The notes: a model not told the origin generated them from the sequence alone. Shown: positions 25,801-63,895, counted from the stretch's first letter. The stretch: 64,000 bases of DNA from Blastocatellia bacterium (GCA_025057015.1 JANWYG010000019.1:124001-188000), one strand, 5' to 3'. A program made the numbers and translations.

Positions 25801-26532
25801 CTACATTGCCAATCCGCCGTCTACTTGGATGACCTGTCCTGTGATGTAAGCAGCGTCTTCAGATACTAGAAATGCAGCGATGCGAGCTATTTCGTCAACC
25901 TGCCCAAAGCGCCTAAGCGGAATCTGCTCTAGCAGGCTCTTCTTGTAGTCTTCTGAAAGTGTGGCCGTCATGTCTGTTTCGATCATCCCAGGTGCGAGAG
26001 CATTTACGGTTATGTTACGGCTACCGAGTTCTTTAGCAAGTGCTTTAGTAAGACCTATCAACCCAGCCTTTGATGCGGAGTAATTTGCCTGCCCTGCCAT
26101 GCCGACTATGCCGCTTATCGAGCTTATGTTGAGTATTCTACCACTTTCCTGCTTGAGCATAATCGGAGTTACTGCTCTGCAGAAGTTGAAAGCGCTTTTC
26201 AGATTTGTATCGAGCACTTTGTCCCAGTCTTCTTCTTTCATTCTAACTATCAGCTTGTCGTTCGTAATACCAGCATTGTTTACGAGTATATCTATTCGTC
26301 CTAGCTTACTTTTTACGTCTTTAACCATATCTTGTACTGCTGGAAAATCTGCCGCATCTACTTGATAAGCTAGTGCTTGTCGGTCTGTAGAAGTACACTC
26401 CTTGACAAGTTCTTCAGCAGCTTGCGTCGAACGTGTATAGTTAAACACTATGTTACATCCTCTTTTGTACAGTTCCAGAGCTATTGCTCTACCTATGCCT
26501 CTTGATGCACCGGTGATTATAGCTACTTTCAT
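25801..26532 (-). CDS. fabG: 3-oxoacyl-ACP reductase
   Basis: 243 residues from the ATG at 26532, which has GGAG 7 bases upstream; the frame continues 19 codons further but that extension is not FabG-like. NADPH-dependent reduction of 3-oxoacyl-ACP in fatty acid synthesis. TGASRGIGRAIAL (cofactor), NNAGIT, SISG with the catalytic serine, YSASKAG (Tyr and Lys) and the VNALAPGMIETDMT and YITGQVIQVDGG blocks are all present. It could also feed PHA synthesis as a PhaB analogue. Confidence 0.93.
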   Translation of the reverse strand: MKVAIITGASRGIGRAIALELYKRGCNIVFNYTRSTQAAEELVKECTSTDRQALAYQVDAADFPAVQDMVKDVKSKLGRIDILVNNAGITNDKLIVRMKEEDWDKVLDTNLKSAFNFCRAVTPIMLKQESGRILNISSISGIVGMAGQANYSASKAGLIGLTKALAKELGSRNITVNALAPGMIETDMTATLSEDYKKSLLEQIPLRRFGQVDEIARIAAFLVSEDAAYITGQVIQVDGGLAM

Positions 26533-26616
26533 TTTCTGCTCCGTAGGTAAATGATGGCCGATTATAAGTGCTCTTGATGGTGCGATCAACCTACTTATCT
26601 GATATCATCGATCGCT

Positions 26617-49577: not shown

Positions 49578-50789
49578 TCACTCTTTCAGCCAGGAAAGAA
49601 TCTGCTTTACCGCTGTTTCTTCCCAACCAAGCTGTAAGTGATTTAATCGCTCCATTACCTTCACATCAGCCAGGTTTCTTATTCCTTGTCGGTAGGTAGC
49701 ACTGGATACAAACAATAACCCGTCGCTCGGAGCACTCTTTTCGTTGAAGACAAACGGTATGTTGGCCGCTCCGCCAGCAAGAATGTAGACTTTTACCGAC
49801 TCAGGGGTTCCTCGACGATGCATCTCTGCTATGAGCGAGTCCTTCATTGCAACATCTATTCCCAAGCTCAGTGAATGCTCTCCGCGTCCGCCATAATAAG
49901 TCGTCTTCCAGTCAGTAGTCGTTTCCTCGACCGGATGTATCGAGTCAAGCTTGTTGAGCATCTGTCGCTGACCGGGGAAACAGTCTCCAGCGGCCGTCTT
50001 GTAAATAGAGTATTCAGCTGCACTGATCCACTTACCGCCACATTCGACTTCAATGTGTGGTCCTGGCCCGTTGACCTTTAATTCAGAACTGCCGCAACCT
50101 GGATAAATAAACTCGCTGAAGGTCGTTCCATGCCTAAAAGCAAAGTCTATGCCGTTGTTTGGACAACCAAGTAAGATCAACTTTCTTACATCTTTCTGAT
50201 ACCCTTTGCCCCAAGCTGGCTTCATATCACTTGCATAGAGCCTTGCAGCAAAACCTCCTTTGCTCCAACCTATAATGTCAACTTGGGCTGCGTGCGTGTG
50301 CTTTCTTATTAGCTCTAGCGCAGCGCGTATGTTCTCGCTCCAGGCAAAGTTGTCACCGTGCTTGTGGGCGAAGTTGATAGCAAATACTCTAAGACCTGCT
50401 TCAACTAGGGCTTGCATCAATCCTTTTGAGGGACAGACAAGGCTACCGCAGCCAAAACCTAGTTCATTAGGATTAGCCCAGGCTCTGTCAGCGTTATCAT
50501 TAGTGCCGTGTATAAGTAGTATAGGGGTAGTAGTAGTTTTCTTGTCCCAGCCGGGGGCATAGTAAAGTAGAAATTTGCTCGAATGCGGGCGCTGTTCGCC
50601 AAAATATCGCAGCCTGTGCCTGTCAACGTCACCACGCCCATCCGGCGGATAGTCTTCTTTAGGATAACCTGTAAGAGCGTCTCTATAGCGCTCGACCTTC
50701 TGCCAACCATGCGCTGGATCGGTGAAAGCTTCTTCAAGAAGAACGTCTTGTGTCATAACTATAAATACCAATAGATAGATGCTCGCCAT
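49578..50789 (-). CDS. Secreted alpha/beta hydrolase, lipase-like
   Basis: 403 residues, start ATG with AGGGA upstream, signal peptide at 1-14. PILLIHGTNDNADRAWANPNELG (oxyanion hole) and the nucleophile elbow GWSKGG with S176; disulfide-type cysteines CGSLVC and CPNN. Resembles secreted triacylglycerol lipases. A His near the end (NHLQLGW) may complete the triad. Confidence 0.82.
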   Translation of the reverse strand: MASIYLLVFIVMTQDVLLEEAFTDPAHGWQKVERYRDALTGYPKEDYPPDGRGDVDRHRLRYFGEQRPHSSKFLLYYAPGWDKKTTTTPILLIHGTNDNADRAWANPNELGFGCGSLVCPSKGLMQALVEAGLRVFAINFAHKHGDNFAWSENIRAALELIRKHTHAAQVDIIGWSKGGFAARLYASDMKPAWGKGYQKDVRKLILLGCPNNGIDFAFRHGTTFSEFIYPGCGSSELKVNGPGPHIEVECGGKWISAAEYSIYKTAAGDCFPGQRQMLNKLDSIHPVEETTTDWKTTYYGGRGEHSLSLGIDVAMKDSLIAEMHRRGTPESVKVYILAGGAANIPFVFNEKSAPSDGLLFVSSATYRQGIRNLADVKVMERLNHLQLGWEETAVKQILSWLKE

Positions 50790-50833: not shown

Positions 50834-51862
50834 TTAAGTCGAAACTTTGCGCATCTTACCAGAACGTTTGGCTAACCACGCAGCCGATCGAGGCCAGACT
50901 ACCTTGATGGCGCTCAGCCCTATCGATAATCCATGATGACCACCCTTTACTCGCAACTCCTCTTTGTCAGTACTGCCTACTAGTTTTAGCAATGGCTCGC
51001 TTGATACCGGCGGAACTATATCGTCATGCTCGGCTATCACGTTTAGTATAGAGCAAGTTACTTGAGCCAGATTGATCGTCTTGAGCCCCACTTTCATCTT
51101 GTTTCTTACAAATAAGTTGTCTTGATAAGTACCTTTCATAAACTGCCTGAAAGTCTCGCCCGGTATGGCTACAGCATCGTTTACCCAGTAGTCAAAAGCT
51201 AAAAAGATCTTGACGTACTCCTCGTTGTCTATGTTTTCTAGAAGATCGATGTACTTAGTCAAGTTTTTCATCGGCTTGAGCATTGAAAAAGCGCTGCGTA
51301 ATACATCAGCGGGGATGTTTCCATAAGTGTCTACTAGCGCATCCACATCTAGGTTTCTGCCCCATATGCTCAGAGTTGAGTCATTGTGGAAATCTACTGG
51401 CGTGGCAAGCAATACCAGGTTTTTCAAATATTCAGGATGCAGTGCAGCATACATAAGCGACATCGTCCCGCCCATACAGTAGGCAATGAACGATATCCTT
51501 TTTGCACCTGTATAGCCCAGAACAGCATCAACCGCATGCGGCAGGTACTTGTTGATATGCTCGCCGAGAGAGACAAAGCAATCTTCATCTCGTGGCGTAC
51601 CCCAATCAAGCATAAATACGTCGAAGCCCTGCCCTAAAAGGTATTCGACGTAGCTTTTTCCCGGCGTTAGATCGAGGATGTAGTACTTGTTGACAAGCGA
51701 GTTAACTATTAGTATCGGTAAGGAGTATACGCGTTCTGCATGCGGCCTGTAGTGTAGTAGCCGGATGCGATCTTCAGCGTATATTACATCCGCCGGCGTG
51801 GGTGCTATTTCTGGCCTTTTGAGCCCTCCTAGTAGCGCAGCTATCTTTTCTGTATTCATCAT
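50834..51862 (-). CDS. PhaC-like polyhydroxyalkanoate synthase
   Basis: 342 residues, the size of a class III PhaC. Polymerises hydroxyacyl-CoA into PHA. Nucleophile C129 in IAYCMGGT (the first Gly of the lipase-like box is Ala), Asp in AEHDDIVPP, His in KGGHHGLS. LDLTPGKSYVEYLLGQGFDVFMLDWG is typical. The alternative Met2 start is equally possible. Last gene of the minus-strand PHA run, 11 bases after the CoA ligase. Confidence 0.88.
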   Translation of the reverse strand: MMNTEKIAALLGGLKRPEIAPTPADVIYAEDRIRLLHYRPHAERVYSLPILIVNSLVNKYYILDLTPGKSYVEYLLGQGFDVFMLDWGTPRDEDCFVSLGEHINKYLPHAVDAVLGYTGAKRISFIAYCMGGTMSLMYAALHPEYLKNLVLLATPVDFHNDSTLSIWGRNLDVDALVDTYGNIPADVLRSAFSMLKPMKNLTKYIDLLENIDNEEYVKIFLAFDYWVNDAVAIPGETFRQFMKGTYQDNLFVRNKMKVGLKTINLAQVTCSILNVIAEHDDIVPPVSSEPLLKLVGSTDKEELRVKGGHHGLSIGLSAIKVVWPRSAAWLAKRSGKMRKVST

Positions 51863-51873
51863 ATTTGCTGTAA

Positions 51874-53652
51874 CTAGCTGTAGAGTGCTTCCAACAGATG
51901 ACCATAGTTTTTCGCTACCACATTGCGTTTTATCTTGAGCGTAGGAGTAATCTCGTCAGCTTCGAGGCTTAGGTCATGGTCTAATATTACAAACTTCTTT
52001 ATCGCTTCGGTAGATGAAACGCGGGCATTTACAGCGTTTACTATCTGCTCTACGAGTGAGACTATCTGCGGATGCTTGGTCAGCTCGGCAAAAGAGCCAT
52101 ACTCTATGCCGCGGCTTCGAGCATACTCTTCGGTCTCGGCTTGGTTGAGCGTAATCAATGCCGTAATATAGCTTTTGCCGTCACCATAAGCCATAGCTTG
52201 ACTTATAAGGTGGTGCTCTTTGAGTAGGTTTTCTAGCAGTGCTGGAGCGACGTTTTTGCCCGTCGAGGTGACTATTAGCTCTTTCTTTCTGCCTGTAATC
52301 TTGAGAAATCCATCTTCGGTCAGCTCGCCTAAATCGCCGGTCAGCAACCATCCATCACGAAACATCTCTGCTGTCTTTTCAGGTTCTTTGTAGTAACCTG
52401 AAAACATCATCTCGCTACGGACAAGTATTTCACTATCCTCAGCAATTCGGATCTGGCAACCAGGCATAGCCGGGCCTACAGTTCCGAAGCGATAATTGTC
52501 AGGTCGATTGAAGGCGACGCAGACGTTTTCAGTAAGGCCGTAAGCTTGCAGTATAGGCAGACCCAGTGCGTCAAAGAATTCTGCTATTTCAAGCGGTAGC
52601 GGTGCACCACCTGAAGTGGCTATCCTGATACGGCCACCGAAGTAACCTCTTACTTTTTCTATCACCGGACGAGCTAGTGCGTCATATTCAGCTTGCACTT
52701 CCTCAGGTACCTTTTGTTTAGCTTGACGGGCATGACTAATATGCCGCCCTAAGTCCAGCACTTTATAAAAGAGCTCCTTGTCTTCTTGAGAAGACTTTTC
52801 AACATCGGCTAGTATCCTTGCGTGGATCTTCTCGTAGAACCTGGGTAGACTGCCAAAGACCGTGGGCCGCACTTCTTGCATATACTGCCATAGCTTATTT
52901 ATGTCATCTACAAAGTAAGCTGGCGCTCCAGCATAGAGCCTGTTATAAAGCCCTGAAATCCGCTCAGCTACATGGCAGTACGGCAGGTATGAGAACGATG
53001 TGTCTTCAGGAGAAATAGGTATAGTCTCAAGCAGCGACTCGCAACTATTGATTACGTACCTGTGGCTAAGGCAGGCTCCTTTTGGCAAACCCGTCGTTCC
53101 CGATGTGTATACCATTATTGCTGTGTCTTCCGCAGTTGCAGCACAGGCACGGTTTATGACTTCTCTTCTAGCTTCATTTGCAGCTTCACCCATCTTCAAG
53201 AAAGTTTTGAAAGGGATGACCTCACTGCTGGAACAAGACTCGTCAAGTACCAGTAAGTAGCGTAGCTTGGGAAGAGAGTTTCGCACTTGCAGGATCTTTT
53301 CAAGCTGTGTCCTAGTGTCTACTACTACGTACTCTGCGTCAGAATGTTCTATTATGAAGCGACACTGTTCTGGTGATGAGGTAGGGTAGAGACCTACGCC
53401 TATGCCGCCGGCAATGATAGTGCCAACATCAGCTATCGGCCATTCTGGAACGTTTGACATAAGTATGCAGACCGAAGTGCCCGGTTTAAGACCTGTACTG
53501 ACAAGCGCCTGAGCAAAGTAGTAAACATCTTGCTCGAATTTTTCCCATAAAATGGGCTGCCATATGCCTTCGCGGCGGATATAGAAGATAGGCTTAGAAC
53601 GATTGGCACTTGTGCGATCGCAAAATAGTTTGTATATATTTGCGTACTTCAT
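51874..53652 (-). CDS. Long-chain acyl-CoA synthetase (AMP-forming)
   Basis: 592 residues. AMP-binding motif YTSGTTGLPKGACLSH, VFGSLPRFYEKIHARI, ATSGGAPLPLEIAEFF, QAYGLTE and GWLLTGDLGELTEDGFLKITGRKKELIVTSTGKNVAP. It supplies acyl-CoA from free acids; inside the PHA gene run it may activate hydroxy acids from or for the polymer. Overlaps the upstream phaC-like stop by 4 bases (ATGA), so translation is coupled. Confidence 0.93.
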   Translation of the reverse strand: MKYANIYKLFCDRTSANRSKPIFYIRREGIWQPILWEKFEQDVYYFAQALVSTGLKPGTSVCILMSNVPEWPIADVGTIIAGGIGVGLYPTSSPEQCRFIIEHSDAEYVVVDTRTQLEKILQVRNSLPKLRYLLVLDESCSSSEVIPFKTFLKMGEAANEARREVINRACAATAEDTAIMVYTSGTTGLPKGACLSHRYVINSCESLLETIPISPEDTSFSYLPYCHVAERISGLYNRLYAGAPAYFVDDINKLWQYMQEVRPTVFGSLPRFYEKIHARILADVEKSSQEDKELFYKVLDLGRHISHARQAKQKVPEEVQAEYDALARPVIEKVRGYFGGRIRIATSGGAPLPLEIAEFFDALGLPILQAYGLTENVCVAFNRPDNYRFGTVGPAMPGCQIRIAEDSEILVRSEMMFSGYYKEPEKTAEMFRDGWLLTGDLGELTEDGFLKITGRKKELIVTSTGKNVAPALLENLLKEHHLISQAMAYGDGKSYITALITLNQAETEEYARSRGIEYGSFAELTKHPQIVSLVEQIVNAVNARVSSTEAIKKFVILDHDLSLEADEITPTLKIKRNVVAKNYGHLLEALYS

Positions 53653-54929
53653 CGCTGTTGTCCTCTAGCTTTTCTTTCGGGCTGCTTTGCGTGTGAACGA
53701 GTCGACAGCCACTTGGTAAGTTTAGGCCAAAAGTTTACTATAGCAGCGTCAGAAACAGACATAGATATATGTCCAGCAGAAAATTCGAAATGCTCTTTAT
53801 CTTGCGAAGATATCCTTTGCATTAGCGCTATAGAGCTACGCGTAGGTACTATGTGGTCGTGGCTACTGGTTACTAGTAACACAGGCATGCTAATGTTGGC
53901 AAGGTCGACTTTTTCTGAACCCACTTCAAACAAGTTTCGTACTAGCTTGTTCTTCTGGTACAAGTCTTTTACTAGCTTGCGATAGAAAGTACCAGCGATC
54001 GAAACATTGTCGTGTGCCCATATCTCCAAGGCTAGAAAGTCTCGTAGATAAGCCTCGTCATTGGGATGTTTGAGTAGATTGACATATTTTGTCAGGTTTG
54101 TTGCAGGTTTAAGCATTACGAAAGCAGTTTGCACAAGCTCTGCGGGAGCTACTTTGCAAGTATCTATTAGAGCATCTACGTCGAAGTAACGCTCATCTGC
54201 CCATTTGCTTATGAGGCCTGCTTGATCGAAGTCTATAGGAGTGGCCATCAGCACTAAGTTTTTGATTAAGCTGGAGTTACGTGCTGCATAGATAGTGCAA
54301 AGTAGACCTCCTATGCAGTAGCCGAGCAATGTCACTTGGTCGCTACGGGATAGCTGCAGGATCTTTCTTACGCTGCGGTCTATAAAGCTGTCGTAATGCT
54401 CGAAACCGTAATAGTGCTCTTCAGCGGTGACGCGTCCCCAATCAATGATATATACGTCGTAACCTTGTGCCAAGAGGTATTCTACTAAGCTTCTTCCCGG
54501 AGTAAGATCGAGGATGTAGTACCTATTGACTAACGAACAGACCATGAGAATTGGGATGGAGTATTTACGGGTGGTGCTGCGATAGCGTAGTAGCCGCATA
54601 TTTGCTTCATCGTAGACGACGTCACAGGGTGTATCTGCAAGCCGCGGCAGCAGATCTTTACCGCTGATTTTGACGAAGTTTTTGGCGGCAATCTTCATAA
54701 ACTCTGTGCTGGCCGAGATAAACTCTCTAAGAAAGTCGTCCGAAGCTGCTAATCCGAATGCGCTGGCAAGAGCACTATAAGTTTTGCGGAAAGCTAGTAA
54801 GACAGATAAGTTTCTGTTCATAGCCTCTACCACGACGGGTTGTGCTGACCATTCTTCCCATACGTGATCTGCCGCCTTTTGCCATAGCTCGAATACTTCG
54901 TAACAGGTCTTCATCGTCTGTTGTAGCAT
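53649..54929 (-). CDS. Second PhaC-like polyhydroxyalkanoate synthase, with N-terminal extension
   Basis: 426 residues, start ATG preceded by GGAGG. Residues 1-100 are a helical extension absent from the shorter paralogue. C205 in LLGYCIGGLL is the nucleophile, Asp in SSHDHIVPTRS and His in SAGHIS complete the triad. Similar to class III/I PhaC proteins; the paralogues share LVN(R/K)YYILDLTPG(R/K)S. First of three coupled genes. Confidence 0.9.
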   Translation of the reverse strand: MLQQTMKTCYEVFELWQKAADHVWEEWSAQPVVVEAMNRNLSVLLAFRKTYSALASAFGLAASDDFLREFISASTEFMKIAAKNFVKISGKDLLPRLADTPCDVVYDEANMRLLRYRSTTRKYSIPILMVCSLVNRYYILDLTPGRSLVEYLLAQGYDVYIIDWGRVTAEEHYYGFEHYDSFIDRSVRKILQLSRSDQVTLLGYCIGGLLCTIYAARNSSLIKNLVLMATPIDFDQAGLISKWADERYFDVDALIDTCKVAPAELVQTAFVMLKPATNLTKYVNLLKHPNDEAYLRDFLALEIWAHDNVSIAGTFYRKLVKDLYQKNKLVRNLFEVGSEKVDLANISMPVLLVTSSHDHIVPTRSSIALMQRISSQDKEHFEFSAGHISMSVSDAAIVNFWPKLTKWLSTRSHAKQPERKARGQQR

Positions 54930-54963
54930 ACCACCTCCGTCGCAGTAGGACTATTGGAAAGGG

Positions 54964-55227
54964 TTATTTAGTTGCAGTTGCGAAACGAAAACCTGCTTCG
55001 AATACCTTTTCCGTAGCTTCGTTTGACCGCTTGAGCAACTCTCGCTGAAGGTTGCCTAGGGTATTGAAGTACTCTTTAGCAACCTTAATTTGTGCTTCTT
55101 GCGCTGCTACACAAGCCTCTATCATCCCATAGACCATCTTTTCGGTTGCCTGTTGTGCCTGTAAGCTGCTGTTAAATAAGAAACTTAGATTCTCCTGTGC
55201 CACTTTGCTGAAATCTGTCTTTTCCAT
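54964..55227 (-). CDS. Phasin-like granule-associated protein
   Basis: 87 residues from the ATG at 55227 (AAGGAGG 5 bases upstream); an earlier in-frame start at 55260 is rejected. Entirely helical and amphipathic (QEAQIKVAKEYFNTLGNLQRELLKRSNEATEKV), in the style of phasins that coat PHA granules. Recognition is by character and position, 34 bases before the phaC-like gene. Confidence 0.78.
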   Translation of the reverse strand: MEKTDFSKVAQENLSFLFNSSLQAQQATEKMVYGMIEACVAAQEAQIKVAKEYFNTLGNLQRELLKRSNEATEKVFEAGFRFATATK

Positions 55228-55259
55228 GTTTGCCTCCTTTTTTCGATTTTGGTACGTCA

Positions 55260-55288
55260 AGAGTAAACCTGGATGTTAGAATTGTCAA
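55260..55288 (-). promoter_or_regulatory. Promoter of the phasin/PHA operon
   Basis: Minus-strand TTGACA (55283-55288), 17-base spacer, TACTCT (55260-55265), about 32 bases before the phasin ATG. The operator-like motif lies 9 bases upstream of the -35. Confidence 0.5.
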
Positions 55289-55296
55289 GTAAAATT

Positions 55297-55313
55297 TTTG
55301 CAGTTGCACAAAA
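55297..55313. promoter_or_regulatory. Putative PhaR operator, copy 1 (phasin side)
   Basis: TTTGC-AG-TTGCACAAAA. Fifteen of 17 bases match the copy at 55426. TTGC/GCAA-containing repeats are the known targets of PhaR in other bacteria; assignment here is inference. Confidence 0.6.
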
Positions 55314-55425
55314 TTTTTCCGTACAGACTGAAAGTGAGGCTATTATAGTGGTTTAACGTACTCTCTAGTGCAGAATGGAACTATGCTCCTTAGAGCATGA
55401 CCTAGTATAATTTAGGTGATGAAGG

Positions 55426-55442
55426 TTTGCTATTGCACAAAA
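55426..55442. promoter_or_regulatory. Putative PhaR operator, copy 2 (phaR side)
   Basis: TTTGC-TA-TTGCACAAAA, same orientation as copy 1 and 129 bases from it; directly before the -35 of phaR, consistent with autorepression. Confidence 0.6.
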
Positions 55443-55444
55443 GG

Positions 55445-55474
55445 TTGACAAGTTGCCATAGATAGTACTTAAAT
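55445..55474 (+). promoter_or_regulatory. Promoter of phaR, probably leaderless
   Basis: TTGACA (55445-55450), 18-base spacer, TTAAAT (55469-55474), 6 bases before the ATG at 55481. Confidence 0.45.
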
Positions 55475-55480
55475 GTTACT

Positions 55481-55912
55481 ATGGGCAAAGTAGTGATAAA
55501 GAGGTATGGCAACCGCAGGTTGTATAATACGGAGACGAGCAGGCATATAACGATGGGGCAGCTAGTCGAGCTGATACGTAGCGGTCGCGACTGCGTGGTG
55601 ATTGACTCTAAGACTAACGAAGATATCACGAAATTGATATTGGTTCAGATCATCTTAGAAGAGGAAAAGAGTGGCAAGAATCTATTACCAGTGGAGTTTC
55701 TCTATCAGCTGATTCGCAACAGGGAGGAGAGTTTTCACGATTTCTTTTACAACTACATGACGGCAAGTTTCGAGGCATATCTAAAAGCACGCAGCGAGTT
55801 CGAGCGGAGATTCAAGAGTTGGCTCGAACTAGCTGCTCCGCAGATGTGGGAAAAGATCTTTCCGATGCCCGAAGCTGCCCGGCGACTGTGGGGAATCAAG
55901 GACGAAGACTGA
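55481..55912 (+). CDS. phaR: PHA synthesis regulator PhaR
   Basis: 143 residues. IKRYGNRRLYNTETSRHITMGQLVELIRSGRDCVVIDSKTNEDIT is the PhaR/PhbR N-terminal DNA-binding domain; residues after about 60 follow the PHA-accumulation regulator pattern (LVQIILEEEKSG). It represses phasin and PHA genes until bound to polymer. Divergent from the phasin; its 3' end overlaps the convergent FabH-like gene by 17 bases. Confidence 0.93.
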   Translation: MGKVVIKRYGNRRLYNTETSRHITMGQLVELIRSGRDCVVIDSKTNEDITKLILVQIILEEEKSGKNLLPVEFLYQLIRNREESFHDFFYNYMTASFEAYLKARSEFERRFKSWLELAAPQMWEKIFPMPEAARRLWGIKDED

Positions 55913-56897
55913 GCCATTTGAGGACGACGGCAGCCATGTTCAGCCCGCCACCAGATGCACATAGCACCAGAATATCGCCATCTTTGACGCGGTTGGTCTG
56001 TACGGCGTCATGCAGTACCATAGGTATACAGGCTGAGCCTGTATAGCCCCACTTCTGCATGATCGTATGTGTAAGAGACATGGGAAGTTCGAGCCTTTCC
56101 ATTGCTGCTTTGATAGAGCTTAAGTTGACTTGGGTAAAGAGGAGCAAGTTTACGTCAGCTATGCTCAGGCCGGCGCGGGCTAGCACTTCTTTGACGAGCT
56201 TTGGCCATCCTTCTATGTTTACTTCTGGTGGGTAACGCTGCAGAAAGCGCACTCGGTTGAATTTACCTTCTGAAAGGACTTTTTCATCTATAGGCATACG
56301 TGTGCCGCCGGCTAGTATACCCATGTAGTCATGGTATTTGCCATCGGCTACAAGTTTTGAGGCCATTATTCCAGGTCGATCGGAAGAACATACTACTACT
56401 GCACCGGCCCCATCGGCAAAGATCGTGCAGGTTTTCTTGTCTTTCCAGTCGATATACTTGCTCATTGCGTAGGTGCCTATGACGAGGACATTGTTGTAGT
56501 GTCGGTCAGCAATAATGTACTTAGAAGCTACGTCGAGCGCCGTGACGAATCCTGCACAGGCACAATTTATGTCGAAAGTGCCGGCGTTTGTCGCTTTTAG
56601 ACGATGCTGCACGACTACAGAAGTGGCCGGGGAAATATATTCAGGCGTATCGGTGGCGACTATTATGAGATCGAGCTTGTCGGCTGTAATACCGGCATTT
56701 TCTAGCGCTCTTGCAGCAGCAAAGTAGGCTAAGTCGGCACTCGATTCGTTTTCGGCTGCTATGTGTCGCTCTTCGATACCTACGACTTGAGAGACAAATT
56801 CGTTGATGTTTTCACCGAGCATATTGCTCAGATCATCATTGATCAAGGTGCGTGCTGGCACGTAAATCCCTGTACCTGCTATCGCAGCATGTCTCAT
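55896..56897 (-). CDS. FabH-like 3-oxoacyl synthase III with atypical active site
   Basis: 333 residues. Thiolase fold with nucleophile C114 in NCACAGF. In FabH the His is in PHQAN and the Asn in GNTSA, here the equivalent places read F-T255-Q-V-N and G-Y285-T-G, so both partners are missing while the cysteine stays. The KWGYTGSACIPMVL block looks like a conserved subfamily seen in other bacteria. It may use a different acyl acceptor, or release a ketone or acid, rather than make acetoacetyl-ACP. Overlaps the upstream TetR gene by 62 bases. Confidence 0.88.
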   Translation of the reverse strand: MRHAAIAGTGIYVPARTLINDDLSNMLGENINEFVSQVVGIEERHIAAENESSADLAYFAAARALENAGITADKLDLIIVATDTPEYISPATSVVVQHRLKATNAGTFDINCACAGFVTALDVASKYIIADRHYNNVLVIGTYAMSKYIDWKDKKTCTIFADGAGAVVVCSSDRPGIMASKLVADGKYHDYMGILAGGTRMPIDEKVLSEGKFNRVRFLQRYPPEVNIEGWPKLVKEVLARAGLSIADVNLLLFTQVNLSSIKAAMERLELPMSLTHTIMQKWGYTGSACIPMVLHDAVQTNRVKDGDILVLCASGGGLNMAAVVLKWLSLRP

Positions 56898-57534
56898 AAT
56901 ATCTCCTTGACGTTTCAGGACTGAGTATCCCGCGGCAAAAAATCTCGCAGAGACGCTCTATTGCTTGAGAGTCTGTGATGCCTAGATGGTGATTCCCGCC
57001 GAAGAGCTTTTCTATCAGGAAGTAGTTGAAAAACTGCAAGTACGCCACTGAGAAACCTAATGCTGGATCGATCCCAGGATTAATTAGTCCTTTAGCTTCT
57101 AGCTCGCGGAAGTGCTTGTCAAAACGCCTGCGAAGCTTATCGGTCAATCCTTCAAACATCTTCCTGAAGTGGCAATTTTCAAATTCCAGAACATCTATGT
57201 ACATAAGAAGCCAGTAGTCGTAATGTTCCTCGACCAACATACGCACGAGATGTCCAAATCGGGCAAGGTTTGCCGGTAGCAGCGGTTCTTCTACTTCTTC
57301 GTATATCTTGTTTATCTTCTCGGTTACTGTTTGTTGGTAACGGAGGATGAGCGATTCTAGAAGTTCTTCTTTCGTCCTGTAGTAGTTGTATAAATTACCA
57401 AGCGAGACGCCGGCTTCGGCAGCTATGTCTCGCATCGAGGTTCCATGAAAACCTCGCTTGATGAACAGCACCTTAGCCGCTTCTTCTATCTTTTCTCTGC
57501 GCGCTTCTAGTTCTTCATTGCTCAGTTTCGGCAT
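56836..57534 (-). CDS. TetR/AcrR family regulator
   Basis: 232 residues. N-terminal helix-turn-helix FIKRGFHGTSMRDIAAEAGVSLGNLYNYYRTKEEL; the C-terminal ligand domain has VEEHYDYWLLMYIDV and C-rich tail. Its end overlaps the FabH-like start by 62 bases, so it probably controls that gene and itself through the site at 57545-57557; fatty-acyl ligands are likely by analogy to PsrA/FadR. Confidence 0.9.
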   Translation of the reverse strand: MPKLSNEELEARREKIEEAAKVLFIKRGFHGTSMRDIAAEAGVSLGNLYNYYRTKEELLESLILRYQQTVTEKINKIYEEVEEPLLPANLARFGHLVRMLVEEHYDYWLLMYIDVLEFENCHFRKMFEGLTDKLRRRFDKHFRELEAKGLINPGIDPALGFSVAYLQFFNYFLIEKLFGGNHHLGITDSQAIERLCEIFCRGILSPETSRRYYETCCDSRYRDLRASTHLDQ

Positions 57535-58940: not shown

Positions 58941-59723
58941 GTGTCGATAGATCTTTCTGGTAAGACTGCATTGGTAACAGGTGCAAGCCGTGGCATTGGA
59001 CGTGCCTGCGCACTGAAACTTGCGCAGGTAGGGGCAAGTTTGGTGCTAGCTGGCCGTAATCAGCCACAGCTCGAAGCTGTTGCCAGTGAAGTACGCTCTC
59101 TTGGTAGAGAAGCACTGCCACTGCTGATGGATGTACGTAGTACGGAAAGCGTGGAGGCTGCTTTTGAAAAAGCCAGACAAGTTTTTCCCTCTATAGATAT
59201 CCTAGTAAACAACGCAGGAATAGCACATAGCGCTCCGTTTCAGCGTTGGACGGATAGAGACTGGGCGGAAGTCTTCGAGGTTAACGTTAATGGAGTCTTC
59301 AGATGTAGCCGGGCTGTGCTGCCGATTATGCAGGAGCGCCGCTGGGGCAGGATAGTAAACATAGCGTCTGTAGCCGGGAAAGCTGGTGCCGCTTACATTA
59401 CGGGCTATGCTGCCTCAAAACATGCAGTGCTAGGCCTTACGAAAGCACTGGCTGTGGAAGTTGCCGAACGCGGCATCACAGTTAATGCTGTCTGTCCAGG
59501 ATACGTTGAGACTGACATGGCGATGATGGCCATAAAGACGATCACCGAGAAAACTAAACTGAACCAACAGCAAGCTCTTGAATACCTGCGCTCTCAGACT
59601 CCGCAGAAACGGCTCTTTCAAGTCGACGAAGTAGCTGCCCTAGTCGTCTATCTATGTAGCGAAGCCGCCGCAGGCATAAATGGTCAAGCGATAAACATTT
59701 GTGGAGGAGCGTTGCCTTACTGA
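58941..59723 (+). CDS. SDR-family dehydrogenase, hydroxyacyl-CoA type
   Basis: 260 residues from a GTG at 58941. NAD(P) site TGASRGIGRACALKLA, NNAGIA, SVAG catalytic serine, YITGYAASKHAV (Tyr, Lys) and INGQAINICGGALPY. Resembles FabG/3-hydroxybutyrate dehydrogenases. First gene of a six-gene overlapping unit; a 3-hydroxyacyl-CoA dehydrogenase role in a beta-oxidation-like degradation is inferred. Its stop overlaps the RidA start (TGATG). Confidence 0.92.
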   Translation: MSIDLSGKTALVTGASRGIGRACALKLAQVGASLVLAGRNQPQLEAVASEVRSLGREALPLLMDVRSTESVEAAFEKARQVFPSIDILVNNAGIAHSAPFQRWTDRDWAEVFEVNVNGVFRCSRAVLPIMQERRWGRIVNIASVAGKAGAAYITGYAASKHAVLGLTKALAVEVAERGITVNAVCPGYVETDMAMMAIKTITEKTKLNQQQALEYLRSQTPQKRLFQVDEVAALVVYLCSEAAAGINGQAINICGGALPY

Positions 59724-60136
59724 TGGACACTTTTAAGATTATCAATCCTCAACAGTGGCCGCAGCCGCGCGGTTACAATAACGGTCTATTGACCATAACT
59801 GAGGGTAGGTTGCTGTTTGTTGCTGGACAAATAGGCTGGGATAGCCGAAAGCACCTCGATGAGAAATTCTGCAGGCAGTTCGAACGGGCACTTGAAAACG
59901 TCTTAACTGTAGTTCGTGATGCAGGTGGCTCGGCAGAAAACATTGCTCGGCTGACTATCTTTGTTACCGATAAGCAAGAGTATTTGCAGCAGCTCAAAGA
60001 AGTAGGCGCAGCTTATAAACGCCTCATGGGAAAGCACTTTCCTGCTATGTCGTTGCTTGAAGTCAAGTCGCTACTGGAACCAAATGCCAAGGTAGAAATA
60101 GAAGCCACGGCGGTTATACCTTATGGAAAAAGCTAA
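59723..60136 (+). CDS. RidA-family protein
   Basis: 137 residues from the ATG at 59723 (the frame 8 codons up lies within the SDR gene). RidA members hydrolyse reactive enamines/imines. VAGQIGWDSR, ENVLTVVRDAGGSAENIARLTIFVTDK and AMSLLEVKSLLEPNAKVEIEATA are the family blocks; the usual catalytic Arg is shifted (EVKSLLEP replaces VxxLxxP...), so activity toward a cyclic imine rather than 2-aminoacrylate is possible. Overlaps marR by 14 bases. Confidence 0.88.
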   Translation: MDTFKIINPQQWPQPRGYNNGLLTITEGRLLFVAGQIGWDSRKHLDEKFCRQFERALENVLTVVRDAGGSAENIARLTIFVTDKQEYLQQLKEVGAAYKRLMGKHFPAMSLLEVKSLLEPNAKVEIEATAVIPYGKS

Positions 60137-60557
60137 ATTGGCGGTAGGTACGTGGATTCGGCTGATGAAGAGTTACAATCTGATCTTACGTCGTACGCGT
60201 AGAAGGATCAAGGAATGTACCTTATCGCAGTTTGATGTGCTGGCACAGTTAGAGCGTCATCCTGAAGGTGTCACTTTCAGTGAGTTAAGTAAAGAGCTGC
60301 TTGTCACTGCTGGAAATCTGACTGGTGTAGTAGACAGGCTGGAAAAGTCAGGACTGGTGGTTCGCTCTAGTGTGCCTACGGACAGACGAAGCGTATTGTT
60401 GCGGCTTACTGAGAAAGGCGACACGCTTGCAAAGCGGTTGATAGCGCGTCATAGAAGGGATCTCAAATTTGTTTTCAGCGTGCTTACCGAAGAAGAGCTA
60501 GTGCAGTTACGAAACCTGCTGGACAAGCTACAGCAGGCGCTTGAGGAGGAGAAGTGA
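60123..60557 (+). CDS. MarR-family regulator
   Basis: 144 residues. Winged helix with FDVLAQLERHPEGVTFSELSKELLVTAGNLTGVVDRLEKSGLVVRSSVPTDRRSVLLRLTEKG. In aromatic and phenylacetate/aminobenzoate gene sets such regulators sense the CoA-thioester. Placed inside the operon it may control the whole set. Overlaps RidA and the hydratase. Confidence 0.93.
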   Translation: MEKAKLAVGTWIRLMKSYNLILRRTRRRIKECTLSQFDVLAQLERHPEGVTFSELSKELLVTAGNLTGVVDRLEKSGLVVRSSVPTDRRSVLLRLTEKGDTLAKRLIARHRRDLKFVFSVLTEEELVQLRNLLDKLQQALEEEK

Positions 60558-61360
60558 CCCCGAAGACGTTTGATTATAACCAACAGGATGACGGTGTTGG
60601 CGTGATTACGCTAAACCGTCCTGAGAGGCTAAATGCCTTGACTTTTGAGGTTTATCGCGAGCTTACGGACTTTTTCAGGGAACTTCAGCATGATAATAAG
60701 CTAGGTGCAGTGATAATCACGGGCACAGGCCGGGGCTTTTGTTCTGGCGGAGACGTAAAAGACATAATTGGTAAGCTCTTAGACAGGCCTGCTGATGAGC
60801 TGCTCAAGTTTACGAGGATGACCTGCGAGCTGGTTGCTAATATTCGCGCGCTGCACAGACCCGTTATCGCAGCTATAAATGGCGTAGCTGCTGGAGCAGG
60901 TGCGATGATAGCTCTAGCAGCCGATCTCCGAATAGCTTCTGAAGAAGCTCGCATAGCGTTTCTTTTCGTCAAGGTTGGCTTAAGTGGTGCCGATATGGGT
61001 GCAGCGTTTCTGCTGCCGCGGATAGTTGGACTGGGTAGAGCTACGGAGCTGCTCTACAGCGGCGATTTCATTACGGCACAAGAAGCCGAGCGAATAGGAC
61101 TTTACAACCGAGTTGTACCAGCAGCGGATCTGATGAACGAAGCATATTCGCTAGCTAAGCGGCTTGCCAACGGGCCGCGCTTTGGACTGGCGATGACTAA
61201 GCAGATGCTGAATAGAGAATTTAGCCTAGGTCTTAGCGAAGCGTTGGAGGCTGAGGCTCAAGCGCAAGCTATCTGTATGCAGCATCCTGACTACAAAGAA
61301 GCTTACTTAGCATTTGTAGAAAAACGCAAACCAGAGTTTAATATAAATGATTCCCTATGA
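60554..61360 (+). CDS. Enoyl-CoA hydratase/isomerase family
   Basis: 268 residues, GTG start overlapping the marR stop. VGVITLNRPERLNALTFEVYRELTDFF, oxyanion-hole RGFCSGGDVKD and INGVAAGAGAMIALAADLRIASEEARIAF are present; one of the two usual catalytic glutamates is at the LSGAD position (D/E alternatives). It hydrates or isomerises an acyl-CoA intermediate in the degradation set. Confidence 0.93.
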   Translation: MTPKTFDYNQQDDGVGVITLNRPERLNALTFEVYRELTDFFRELQHDNKLGAVIITGTGRGFCSGGDVKDIIGKLLDRPADELLKFTRMTCELVANIRALHRPVIAAINGVAAGAGAMIALAADLRIASEEARIAFLFVKVGLSGADMGAAFLLPRIVGLGRATELLYSGDFITAQEAERIGLYNRVVPAADLMNEAYSLAKRLANGPRFGLAMTKQMLNREFSLGLSEALEAEAQAQAICMQHPDYKEAYLAFVEKRKPEFNINDSL

Positions 61361-62477
61361 TGAGAGTTACAACCAGCTGCTACGTGAGCTAGAGAAATTC
61401 ATCGAGTCTCATAAAGACCTACTTGCCGAAGAGTGGGACGATGATTTAGCTCAAGCACGGAGTATACTGAAAGCCTTGGCTGAAGCGCGCTTGATCGAAT
61501 ACGTTGTTCCCGCAGCTTACGGTGGACGAGGAGATAAGGTAAGGGCACGCCTTATATGTCTTGCCAGAGAAAAACTTGCCTATGAGCACGCACTTGCCGA
61601 TCTGATGTTTGCGATGCAAGGGTTGGGTAGCTACCCGATTACGCTTGCTGGTAGCGAGCGGCTTAAGTCGCGCTATCTGCCGGCGGTAGCAAAGGGTGAG
61701 AAAATAGCAGCCTTTGCGCTCACTGAGCCGGCGGCGGGTTCAGATGTAGCGGGTATCTCAACTCTTGCCGTACGTACTGCAGATGAGTATTTGATAACTG
61801 GTACTAAGACTTATATCTCGAATGCTGGCATAGCTGATTTTTACGTCGTATTCGCAAAAACTGATCCGCAAGCGGGCAAGAACGGCATATCTGCTCTTGT
61901 AGTTGATGCAGACCAGGTAACCGTTCGAGCGCTACGTATGCTTTCAGCTCATCCTATAGGTGAAGTCACTTTCAATTGTCGCGTGCCTACAAGTCAGTTG
62001 CTTGGTGTTGAGGGTGAAGGCTTCAAAATAGCTATGCAGACACTCGATCTGTTTCGTCCGACCGTGGGTGCTGCTGCCGTTGGTCTAGGTAGACGTGCTC
62101 TTGCCGAGAGCCTCGAGTACGCAAAGCGTAGGATGCAGTTTGGCAAGCGGCTTGCTGATTTTCAAGCGATAAGGTTTAAGTTAGCGGATATGTATACTCA
62201 GTTAGAAGCTGCGGCGCTGATGGTAGAGCGGGCAGCTTACGTAGTAGATAGGGGTGTTTCGGCGACCTTGGAGTCCTCTGCAGCGAAGTTATTTGCTACT
62301 GAAGCAGCCCAGTATGCGGTCGATGAGTGTTTGCAGATACACGGTGCTTCTGGGCTGCTTAAGGGAGCAGTGGCAGAGCGCCTCTATCGTGACTTGCGTG
62401 CTATGCGTATTTACGAGGGTACTTCTGAGATACAACGCATAGTCATAGCAAATCAGTTGTTGAAGGGAAGCGTATGA
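61347..62477 (+). CDS. Acyl-CoA dehydrogenase
   Basis: 376 residues, FAD-dependent. AFALTEPAAGSDVAGISTLAVRT, YITGTKTYISNAGIADFYVVFAKTDP, QFGKRLADFQAIRFKLADM and QIHGASGLLKGAVAERLYRDLRAMRIYEGTSEIQRIVIANQLL. The catalytic glutamate is in the IYEGTSE segment. Overlaps the hydratase by 14 bases and the reductase by 4. Confidence 0.95.
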   Translation: MIPYDESYNQLLRELEKFIESHKDLLAEEWDDDLAQARSILKALAEARLIEYVVPAAYGGRGDKVRARLICLAREKLAYEHALADLMFAMQGLGSYPITLAGSERLKSRYLPAVAKGEKIAAFALTEPAAGSDVAGISTLAVRTADEYLITGTKTYISNAGIADFYVVFAKTDPQAGKNGISALVVDADQVTVRALRMLSAHPIGEVTFNCRVPTSQLLGVEGEGFKIAMQTLDLFRPTVGAAAVGLGRRALAESLEYAKRRMQFGKRLADFQAIRFKLADMYTQLEAAALMVERAAYVVDRGVSATLESSAAKLFATEAAQYAVDECLQIHGASGLLKGAVAERLYRDLRAMRIYEGTSEIQRIVIANQLLKGSV

Positions 62478-63895
62478 AGTTATTCGAGCCTATACGGATC
62501 AATTCGATGGTCTTAGAAAACCGTATAGTACTACCGGCGATGGTCACGCGGCTGTCAGGAGAAGACGGGTATGTAAATAAAGACATTCGCGATCGGTATC
62601 TGCGGTTTGCTAAAGGTGAGGTTGGGCTAATAGTGCTCGAAGCTATGGCGGTGCATACGGCAAAAAGTGGGCCGCTACTGCGCATCTGCGACGATCAGTT
62701 TAAGCCTGGGCTAGCTGAGCTTGCTCGGATGATACACGATACAAGTCCGTCTAAGGTAGTACCGCAAATAATTCATTTCCTCAAGATTTCTCGTTCGGGT
62801 TGGCGACAGAAGATCTCTGATCTGAGTATTGAGGAGATAAAGCAGATAGTAATTAACTATGCTGATGCTGCTATGCGAGCTCAGGATTGTGGTTTTGATG
62901 GAGTTGAATTGCACATGGCGCATGCCTACACGCTGAGTTCATTTCTTTCGGCTAAGAATGCGCGTAACGATGCCTACGGACGTACGTTAGAGAACCGAAT
63001 GCGGCTAATGAGTGAGGTAATAGTTGCTGTACGCAAACGTGTTGGTGCAAGTTTTCCCGTGGGAGTGAGATTTGACGGTGAGGAGTGTATCAAGGGTGGT
63101 TATACTCTGAAAGATTCGCAAAAGATAGCGCTACGTATGGCACAGCTTGGAGTAGACTATATCAGCATTTCTGCTGGCGGCAAGTTTGAAGATGCAATAC
63201 CTAAGCCCGGAGAACCACTTTATCCCTACACGGGTTACAGTGGTGACCGATGCATGCCGAGTGCGGACTATCCTGACGGAGCAAATGTCTATCTTGCTGA
63301 GGGGATTAAGCAATATATTAACAGCAACGGCTACTATACTCCGGTAATAGCTACTGGCAAGATCAGCACTCCTGAGTTGGCTGAGCAGATACTAGAGTCG
63401 GGGCGTAGCGACCTCATAGGTATGGCGCGGGCGCTGCTTGCTGATCCGGATTGGCCTAAGAAAGTGCGCGAGGGGCGTTGGGGCAACGTCATTCGTTGTA
63501 TTTACTGTAATGTCTGTAAAAGTTTGGACGAGAATTTCCGTCGAGTGACTTGTACTCTTTGGCCGAAAGGTAGTTTGCAGGCTCCTTATAGTGATGATAA
63601 GATTGCGCCTACTTGGAGCAAGCAAGATCCGCTCGGTGTGCAGTTATATACGGGCTGCACTCGGTTAGTCTGGAGCGAAGCGAAGGATAACGAAGGCGTA
63701 TACGGTTACGATATCTTCCGGAGTGAGAATGGTGGCCCATATTTTCGTTTAACGGCCGTCAAGAGGCTAGGCTATTGGGACACCGAAGTAGTTGGAGGTA
63801 ATACTTACAGCTACTACGTGCAGGCATATGATTTTGCTGGCAACAGATCTGAGCCGTCAAATAAGGTCGAAGTGACCATACCTTTTCCTGTGTAG
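62474..63895 (+). CDS. Old-yellow-enzyme/dienoyl-CoA-reductase-like oxidoreductase with C-terminal fibronectin-like domain
   Basis: 473 residues, ATG overlapping the dehydrogenase stop. TIM-barrel flavin oxidoreductase: FEPIRINSMVLENRIVLPAM, DGVELHMAHAYTLSSFLSAKNARNDAYG, PVGVRFDGEECIKGGY, and LIGMARALLADPDWPKK. Cysteines at 342, 345, 348 and 360 (CIYCNVC...C) match the 4Fe-4S cluster of 2,4-dienoyl-CoA reductase with one spacing shorter. Residues about 385-473 are unlike this family and form a fibronectin-III-like domain (LVWSEAKDNEGVYGYDIFRSENGGPYF...YSYYVQAYDFAGNRSEPS). In aminobenzoyl-CoA degradation an OYE-type domain reduces the hydroxylated ring; here it may play that role. Confidence 0.9.
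   Translation: MKLFEPIRINSMVLENRIVLPAMVTRLSGEDGYVNKDIRDRYLRFAKGEVGLIVLEAMAVHTAKSGPLLRICDDQFKPGLAELARMIHDTSPSKVVPQIIHFLKISRSGWRQKISDLSIEEIKQIVINYADAAMRAQDCGFDGVELHMAHAYTLSSFLSAKNARNDAYGRTLENRMRLMSEVIVAVRKRVGASFPVGVRFDGEECIKGGYTLKDSQKIALRMAQLGVDYISISAGGKFEDAIPKPGEPLYPYTGYSGDRCMPSADYPDGANVYLAEGIKQYINSNGYYTPVIATGKISTPELAEQILESGRSDLIGMARALLADPDWPKKVREGRWGNVIRCIYCNVCKSLDENFRRVTCTLWPKGSLQAPYSDDKIAPTWSKQDPLGVQLYTGCTRLVWSEAKDNEGVYGYDIFRSENGGPYFRLTAVKRLGYWDTEVVGGNTYSYYVQAYDFAGNRSEPSNKVEVTIPFPV

Follow-up and report, generated by a model that had tools for sequence, protein, structure and literature searches.

Class III PHA loci, which contain phaR, phaE and phaC, occur in Planctomycetota, Verrucomicrobiota and haloarchaea. 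Their PhaC is short and lacks an N domain, and in the families related to that of the locus studied here a PhaE-like gene lies 5' of phaC. In Pseudomonas, phaZ is located between two synthase genes. The class II locus of this genus (PhaC1, PhaZ, PhaC2, PhaD, with phaFI) combines two synthase genes in one operon with phasins, and an acyl-CoA synthetase, ACS1, is found on the PHA granules (PMC5658603). Two expressed PhaC paralogues are also known from Bradyrhizobium, for which a PhaC1–PhaC2 heterodimer was proposed (Quelas 2013, as cited in PMC12863089). On a Sinorhizobium plasmid, class III synthase genes are followed by a CoA ligase gene (phaE-phaC-CoA transferase-acs, CP140962). PhaC-like domains and acyl-CoA synthetases even seem to be joined in one protein family, because the N-terminal part (about residues 28–366) of the 994-residue 'acyl-CoA synthetase' NCBIfam NF005898 (PRK07868) was matched by both PhaC proteins described below, although their scores of 69 and 91 bits are far below the cut-off of 925.

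The window, a stretch of 64,000 nucleotides from the 3.33 Mb, 23-contig assembly of a member of the Blastocatellia (Acidobacteriota; genome G000), was found to contain a real class III-type PHA locus that departs from the usual class III arrangement (Table 1). It has in common with class III loci the PhaC subfamily, PhaR and the catalytic triad, and its PhaC2 is as short as theirs. Unlike them, it carries two PhaC genes that go back to a local duplication, with an acyl-CoA ligase gene in between. An earlier note on this DNA had reported that no phaA, phaB or phaE gene is immediately adjacent, and this was confirmed; elsewhere the genome encodes thiolases, FabG/PhaB-like reductases and an unlinked PhaE-like protein. 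Compared with the Pseudomonas class II locus, the window has PhaC of another class, a ligase instead of a depolymerase between the synthases, and regulation assigned to PhaR. The Sinorhizobium operon differs by its single PhaC, the presence of PhaE and an acetate–CoA ligase, and NF005898 differs in that the corresponding genes of the window are separate. For the Bradyrhizobium pair, PMC12863089 mentions neither a ligase nor a Ser nucleophile, unlike what was observed in Blastocatellia.

Table 1. Features of the PHA locus and its flanks (positions within the window)
Feature	Position	Strand	Basis
Lipase-like alpha/beta hydrolase (403 aa), next gene after PhaC2	49578-50789	-	PF01674 Lipase_2, 28.3 bits vs cut-off 20.3
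PhaC2, class III-type PHA synthase, 342 aa, box AYCMGG	50834-51862	-	TIGR01836, tree, AF2 fold
AMP-forming acyl-CoA ligase, 592 aa	51874-53652	-	PF00501 + PF23562
PhaC1, 426 aa, Cys form	53649-54929	-	TIGR01836, tree, AF2 fold
Phasin-like helical protein, 87 aa from ATG behind AGGAGG	54964-55227 (ORF start possible at 55260)	-	size, position, G001 homologue
Intergenic control region, two TTGCACAAAA copies (55304, 55433)	55261-55480	.	candidate PhaR operator
phaR, PHA-responsive repressor	55481-55912	+	TIGR01848 above cut-off, PF07879
KASIII (FabH)-like protein, part of the older acyl module	55896-56897	-	precedes ligase in PhaC-less relatives
TetR-family regulator, same module as KASIII-like; ORFs overlap	56836-57534	-	PF00440

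The positions and orientations of the phasin-like, PhaC1, ligase and PhaC2 genes, opposite phaR, were as previously described. On the minus strand the genes are transcribed in the order TetR, KASIII-like, phasin-like, PhaC1, ligase, PhaC2 and lipase-like hydrolase, and phaR, on the plus strand, lies between the KASIII-like and the phasin-like gene. A single transcript is likely, because PhaC1 overlaps the start of the ligase gene by 4 bases and the gap between the ligase and PhaC2 is 11 bases. The explanation that we prefer, and to which we would give even chances, is that a class III-type PHA locus has become part of an older acyl-activation module, is fed by lipids, and uses PhaC2 as the core synthase and PhaC1 as its partner.

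Judged by HMM scores, phylogeny and predicted fold, both PhaC proteins are genuine class III-type synthases. The best model for both was TIGR01836 (class III PhaC), which gave 329 bits for PhaC1 and 355 bits for PhaC2, just under the cut-off of 365.3; for this reason they are named class III-type, and not class III. The class I model TIGR01838 gave 152–162 bits against a cut-off of 622.65, and the class II model gave 85 bits. In a 116-row tree both proteins fell inside the class III/IV radiation, from which class I was separate, and neither belonged to an unrelated alpha/beta hydrolase clade. Alignment showed that the Cys-Asp-His triad is intact in both (C205/D358/H387 in PhaC1 and C129/D280/H309 in PhaC2), as the earlier note had stated, and that PhaC1 has the box GYCIGG where PhaC2 has AYCMGG. 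The first residue of the latter, Ala, is a private change, the box being GYCMGG in the 15 other PhaC2 of the tree. Near-invariant class III columns are kept at 30 and 33 of 35 positions in the two window PhaCs.

The AF2 models (pLDDT of 88.8 for PhaC1 and 92.0 for PhaC2) had their best PDB fold matches in PhaC of Aeromonas, Cupriavidus and Chromobacterium, followed in the case of PhaC1 by lipases and the PhaZ depolymerase of Bacillus. The model of PhaC1 exhibits a predicted N domain (residues 2–89) of three helices (2–28, 31–57 and 63–89), which is missing from PhaC2. Both proteins retain the conserved CAP-region Trp (W304 in PhaC1 and W226 in PhaC2). By a motif-based alignment made here, this residue was equated with the Trp of Cupriavidus PhaC whose mutation disrupts dimerisation (PMC5509742).

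In a 46-row PhaC tree, built with the nucleophile box masked, PhaC1 and PhaC2 formed sister clades (support 100/96, with 100/99 for each of the two clades), and the pair is therefore attributed to a duplication inside Blastocatellia. The sequences indicate that the two synthases are not equals: PhaC2 is better conserved (54–63% identity) and would be the core synthase, and PhaC1 is a fast-evolving duplicate (29–51% identity) whose orthologues keep 25–32 of the 35 synthase-type columns. It was also found that all 13 PhaC1 orthologues from families other than the window's have Ser as nucleophile, with Asp and His retained; the boxes are GYSMGG or GYSLGG, and all Ser codons checked were TCN. Cys is present in every PhaC2 and in every class III-type PhaC among the retrieved named loci examined; of the PhaC1 orthologues identified across the class, those of the window genome and its relative G001 have it. 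A single Cys-to-Ser change was favoured by the tree (96/92), with the window retaining the older state. Parallel changes are possible, because the species-order tree was not rejected in the AU test (p 0.059). A literature search that covered sources other than subscription journals found no report of Ser-type PhaC or of PhaC pairs in Acidobacteriota. When related loci were searched for with PhaC1 alone nothing was obtained, and the PhaC2 alignment as query did yield loci. A third, divergent PhaC is encoded at G000:C13:234512-235576 (L003, L051), adjoining a proline dehydrogenase gene; it has Cys in the window genome and Ser (GYSMGG) in its G002 and G003 orthologues, a further Cys/Ser switch and the second within this family.

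The gene directly 5' of the Ser phaC1 encodes a PhaE-like coiled protein in 13 of 13 cases. At E 0.01, members of this group matched PF09712 (6 of 9) and PF05597 (7 of 9), and their profile also picked up ORFs located 5' to the phaC genes of Dadabacteria, Planctomycetota, Verrucomicrobiota and one haloarchaeon. There is no such gene at the window locus. A PhaE-like protein of 141 aa with a sub-threshold PF09712 match (8e-05) is encoded, unlinked, on contig G000:C8, by which complete loss of PhaE from the window genome was ruled out. Fusion of PhaE into the N terminus of PhaC1 was considered; the profile comparison between the N domain and the PhaE-like proteins was weak, with a probability of 42.6. 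In the Chloracidobacterium-like genome G010, a PhaE-like ORF lies divergently beside an unpaired PhaC2 (L050:8713-9267).

These differences suggest that PhaC1 and PhaC2 may act as an uneven team, and a heteromeric synthase is plausible. The heterodimer idea of the earlier note gains new, indirect support from the conserved pairing of the two genes, the dimer-region Trp retained in both proteins and the Cys-to-Ser change. In a stricter form, PhaC1 and PhaC2 would be an obligate or preferred heteromer in which PhaC1 gives a helical, PhaE-like contact domain and PhaC2 performs most of the catalysis; we hold this only tentatively. The pair is conserved, PhaC1 occurring without PhaC2 in G013 alone, a genome that is 85% complete. 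The faster evolution of PhaC1, the occurrence of Ser in PhaC1 and never in PhaC2, the extra three-helix domain predicted for PhaC1 and, by analogy, the heterodimer suggested for Bradyrhizobium are all consistent with it. However, PhaC2 is present without PhaC1 in three genomes (G002, G028 and G041), phaC1 and phaC2 lie roughly 20–70 kb apart in Chloracidobacterium-like genomes, and the profile comparison of the N domain with the PhaE-like proteins gave a weak match. It is likewise rather doubtful that the two are independent homomeric synthases which differ in monomer preference or expression. The full triads and conserved columns of both window proteins would agree with this, and several phaC paralogues are common elsewhere, for example in Haloferax mediterranei and Rhodospirillum (PMC12863089), but neither the presence of Ser for Cys in PhaC1 alone nor the conserved pairing would be accounted for.

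A further possibility, which we consider unlikely, is an asymmetric PhaC1–PhaC2 synthase (with the PhaE-like protein) in which the active site of one subunit may lose the catalytic Cys; it would be a natural half-site enzyme, having a Ser-Asp-His partner in Chloracidobacterium and relatives and the older Cys/Cys arrangement in the window. It is debated whether the PHA chain grows on one active site or moves back and forth between both cysteines of the dimer (PMC5509742), and a natural Cys/Ser pair with a Cys/Cys sister lineage, represented by the window, would give a direct test of this question. It is improbable that PhaC1 is becoming or has become a granule-bound hydrolase or thioesterase, with depolymerase-like Ser forms and an ancestral Cys form in the window: the 13 PhaC1s retain Ser, Asp and His as in a working Ser hydrolase and unlike a dead subunit, and the next-best folds are lipases and PhaZ, but PhaC1 is closest to PhaC by HMM and fold, keeps its synthase-type columns and stays behind the PhaE-like gene. 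In the preferred explanation, PhaC1 would be a partner or modulator of the conserved core synthase PhaC2, a role accompanied by the Cys-to-Ser change in the sister families.

The ligase contains an AMP-binding domain (PF00501) and a C-terminal domain (PF23562), both over their cut-offs, and the motif YTSGTTGLPKG. Its best NCBIfam match was the FadD11 fatty acid–CoA ligase, with 367 bits; because this is far under the cut-off of 950, the protein is without a named equivalog. Orthologues with 52–69% identity were found class-wide downstream of a KASIII-like gene. In G014, G016, G023, G027 and G031, the KASIII-like gene is followed by the ligase gene (52–66% identity), and a PhaC match is absent or only weak. 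Since the KASIII–ligase pair exists in PhaC-less Blastocatellia, the PHA genes appear to have been inserted into an older lipid/acyl module, and the earlier description of the locus as built around the ligase was misleading. In the window's family, phaR, the phasin-like gene and the PhaC pair sit between or beside the KASIII-like gene and the ligase gene. Upstream of the ligase, the module consists of the KASIII-like gene, mostly with a hydrolase gene before it, and often a TetR gene and a gene for a TonB-type outer membrane protein or lipase further up; TetR orthologues head it in G001, G004, G005, G014, G027 and G031. In G002 an orthologue of the lipase-like hydrolase immediately follows PhaC2, and in G003 one follows the ligase.

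The ligase gene and phaC2 are adjacent in G000, G001 and G002, within ∼2.2 kb of each other in G071 and G076, 4.2 kb apart in G028, and unlinked in G004 and G005. Of the 8 genomes in which both could be placed, 6 show this linkage, in three families with three different gene orders, which would hardly be expected from chance placement in genomes of 3–8 Mb. Chloracidobacterium-like genomes lack the ligase orthologue but have kept the PhaCs, so PHA synthesis there does not depend on it; like the unlinked ligase of G004 and G005 and the absence of MaoC genes from the window locus, this counts against the preferred explanation. The ligase of G001 is split into two ORFs in one MAG contig (L042:4318-6104), likely owing to a frameshift or sequencing error. 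The KASIII-like protein keeps the active Cys, and its catalytic His and Asn are replaced by Thr255 and Tyr285, which are invariant in 14 Blastocatellia orthologues. This FabH relative, found class-wide beside the ligase, probably transfers acyl groups without condensing them. Comparison with structures gave 3e-60 for FabH and about 6e-16 for 3fk5/3row-type chains, which we take to be OleA. The protein being FabH-like and not OleA-like, an olefin (OleABCD) cluster was ruled out for the hydrolase, KASIII-like and ligase genes.

In G001, G002 and G003 the block immediately 5' of the ligase gene contains a MaoC hydratase gene (in the first two as the first of two small ORFs), and in G076 one lies ∼1 kb from the ligase. 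The window locus is without MaoC genes, and one PhaJ-like MaoC protein is encoded, unlinked, on another contig of the genome. Because MaoC genes adjoin the ligase in relatives, we infer from known pathways that fatty acids are the ligase substrate and that (R)-3-hydroxyacyl-CoA is formed via enoyl-CoA. The likeliest role of the ligase is thus in a route from fatty acid through acyl-CoA and (R)-3-hydroxyacyl-CoA to PHA. The ligase would charge fatty acids, imported or released by the adjacent lipase-like hydrolase, to acyl-CoA, which beta-oxidation and a PhaJ/MaoC hydratase would convert to (R)-3-hydroxyacyl-CoA. Polymerisation on phasin-coated granules would then fall to PhaC2 and PhaC1, with the unlinked PhaE-like subunit as a probable third component. 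Such a link to acyl activation suggests a lipid-fed PHA route in Acidobacteriota, for which the literature found has little experimental PHA work.

An acetyl-CoA-based supply is also possible, because the window genome has five full thiolases as well as FabG/PhaB-like reductases (in the window at 25801-26589 and 58941-59723). Class III PHA synthases usually prefer short chain length (PMC5509742), which is no less compatible with this supply than with fatty acids. The ligase might act directly on free 3-hydroxy acids, the earlier note having proposed activation of hydroxy acids, but no observation favours this over the ordinary activation of fatty acids, and that reading gives way to the older acyl-activation module. 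The ligase could also recharge free (R)-3-hydroxy acids from polymer breakdown or uptake, which would make the locus a polymer recycling unit. The location of ACS1 on Pseudomonas granules, the CoA-transferase and acetate–CoA ligase genes behind the Sinorhizobium phaE-phaC genes, and the hydrolase gene directly after PhaC2 would be in line with recycling, but we think it improbable: the ligase–KASIII pair is retained where PhaC is missing, which makes a PHA monomer an improbable ancestral substrate, and the best named family match of the ligase is a fatty acid–CoA ligase. Further along the window, at 58941-63895 on the plus strand, genes for an SDR, a RidA-like protein, MarR, an enoyl-CoA hydratase (PRK08258), an acyl-CoA dehydrogenase and an old-yellow-enzyme-like ORF stand in a row, an arrangement that resembles an operon for degradation of aromatic acyl-CoA of the 2-aminobenzoyl-CoA type.

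The phasin-like protein of the window had no match in a Pfam search that included the phasin families. Its G001 homologue showed a weak Phasin_2 match (E 0.0026), and the position of the gene opposite phaR is conserved in G001, G004 and G005; the phasin call is based on size, position and homology to the G001 protein. PhaR (PF07879) scored 117.3 bits with TIGR01848, above the cut-off of 109.45. In the lipid-fed explanation, it would repress the phasin and synthase genes when polymer is absent. The two copies of TTGCACAAAA in the 220-base gap between the phasin-like gene and phaR are the only ones in the window, where 0.16 per 64 kb would be expected from base composition. The phasin–phaR gaps of G001 and G005 carry the same motif, and it is a candidate site at which PhaR may bind.
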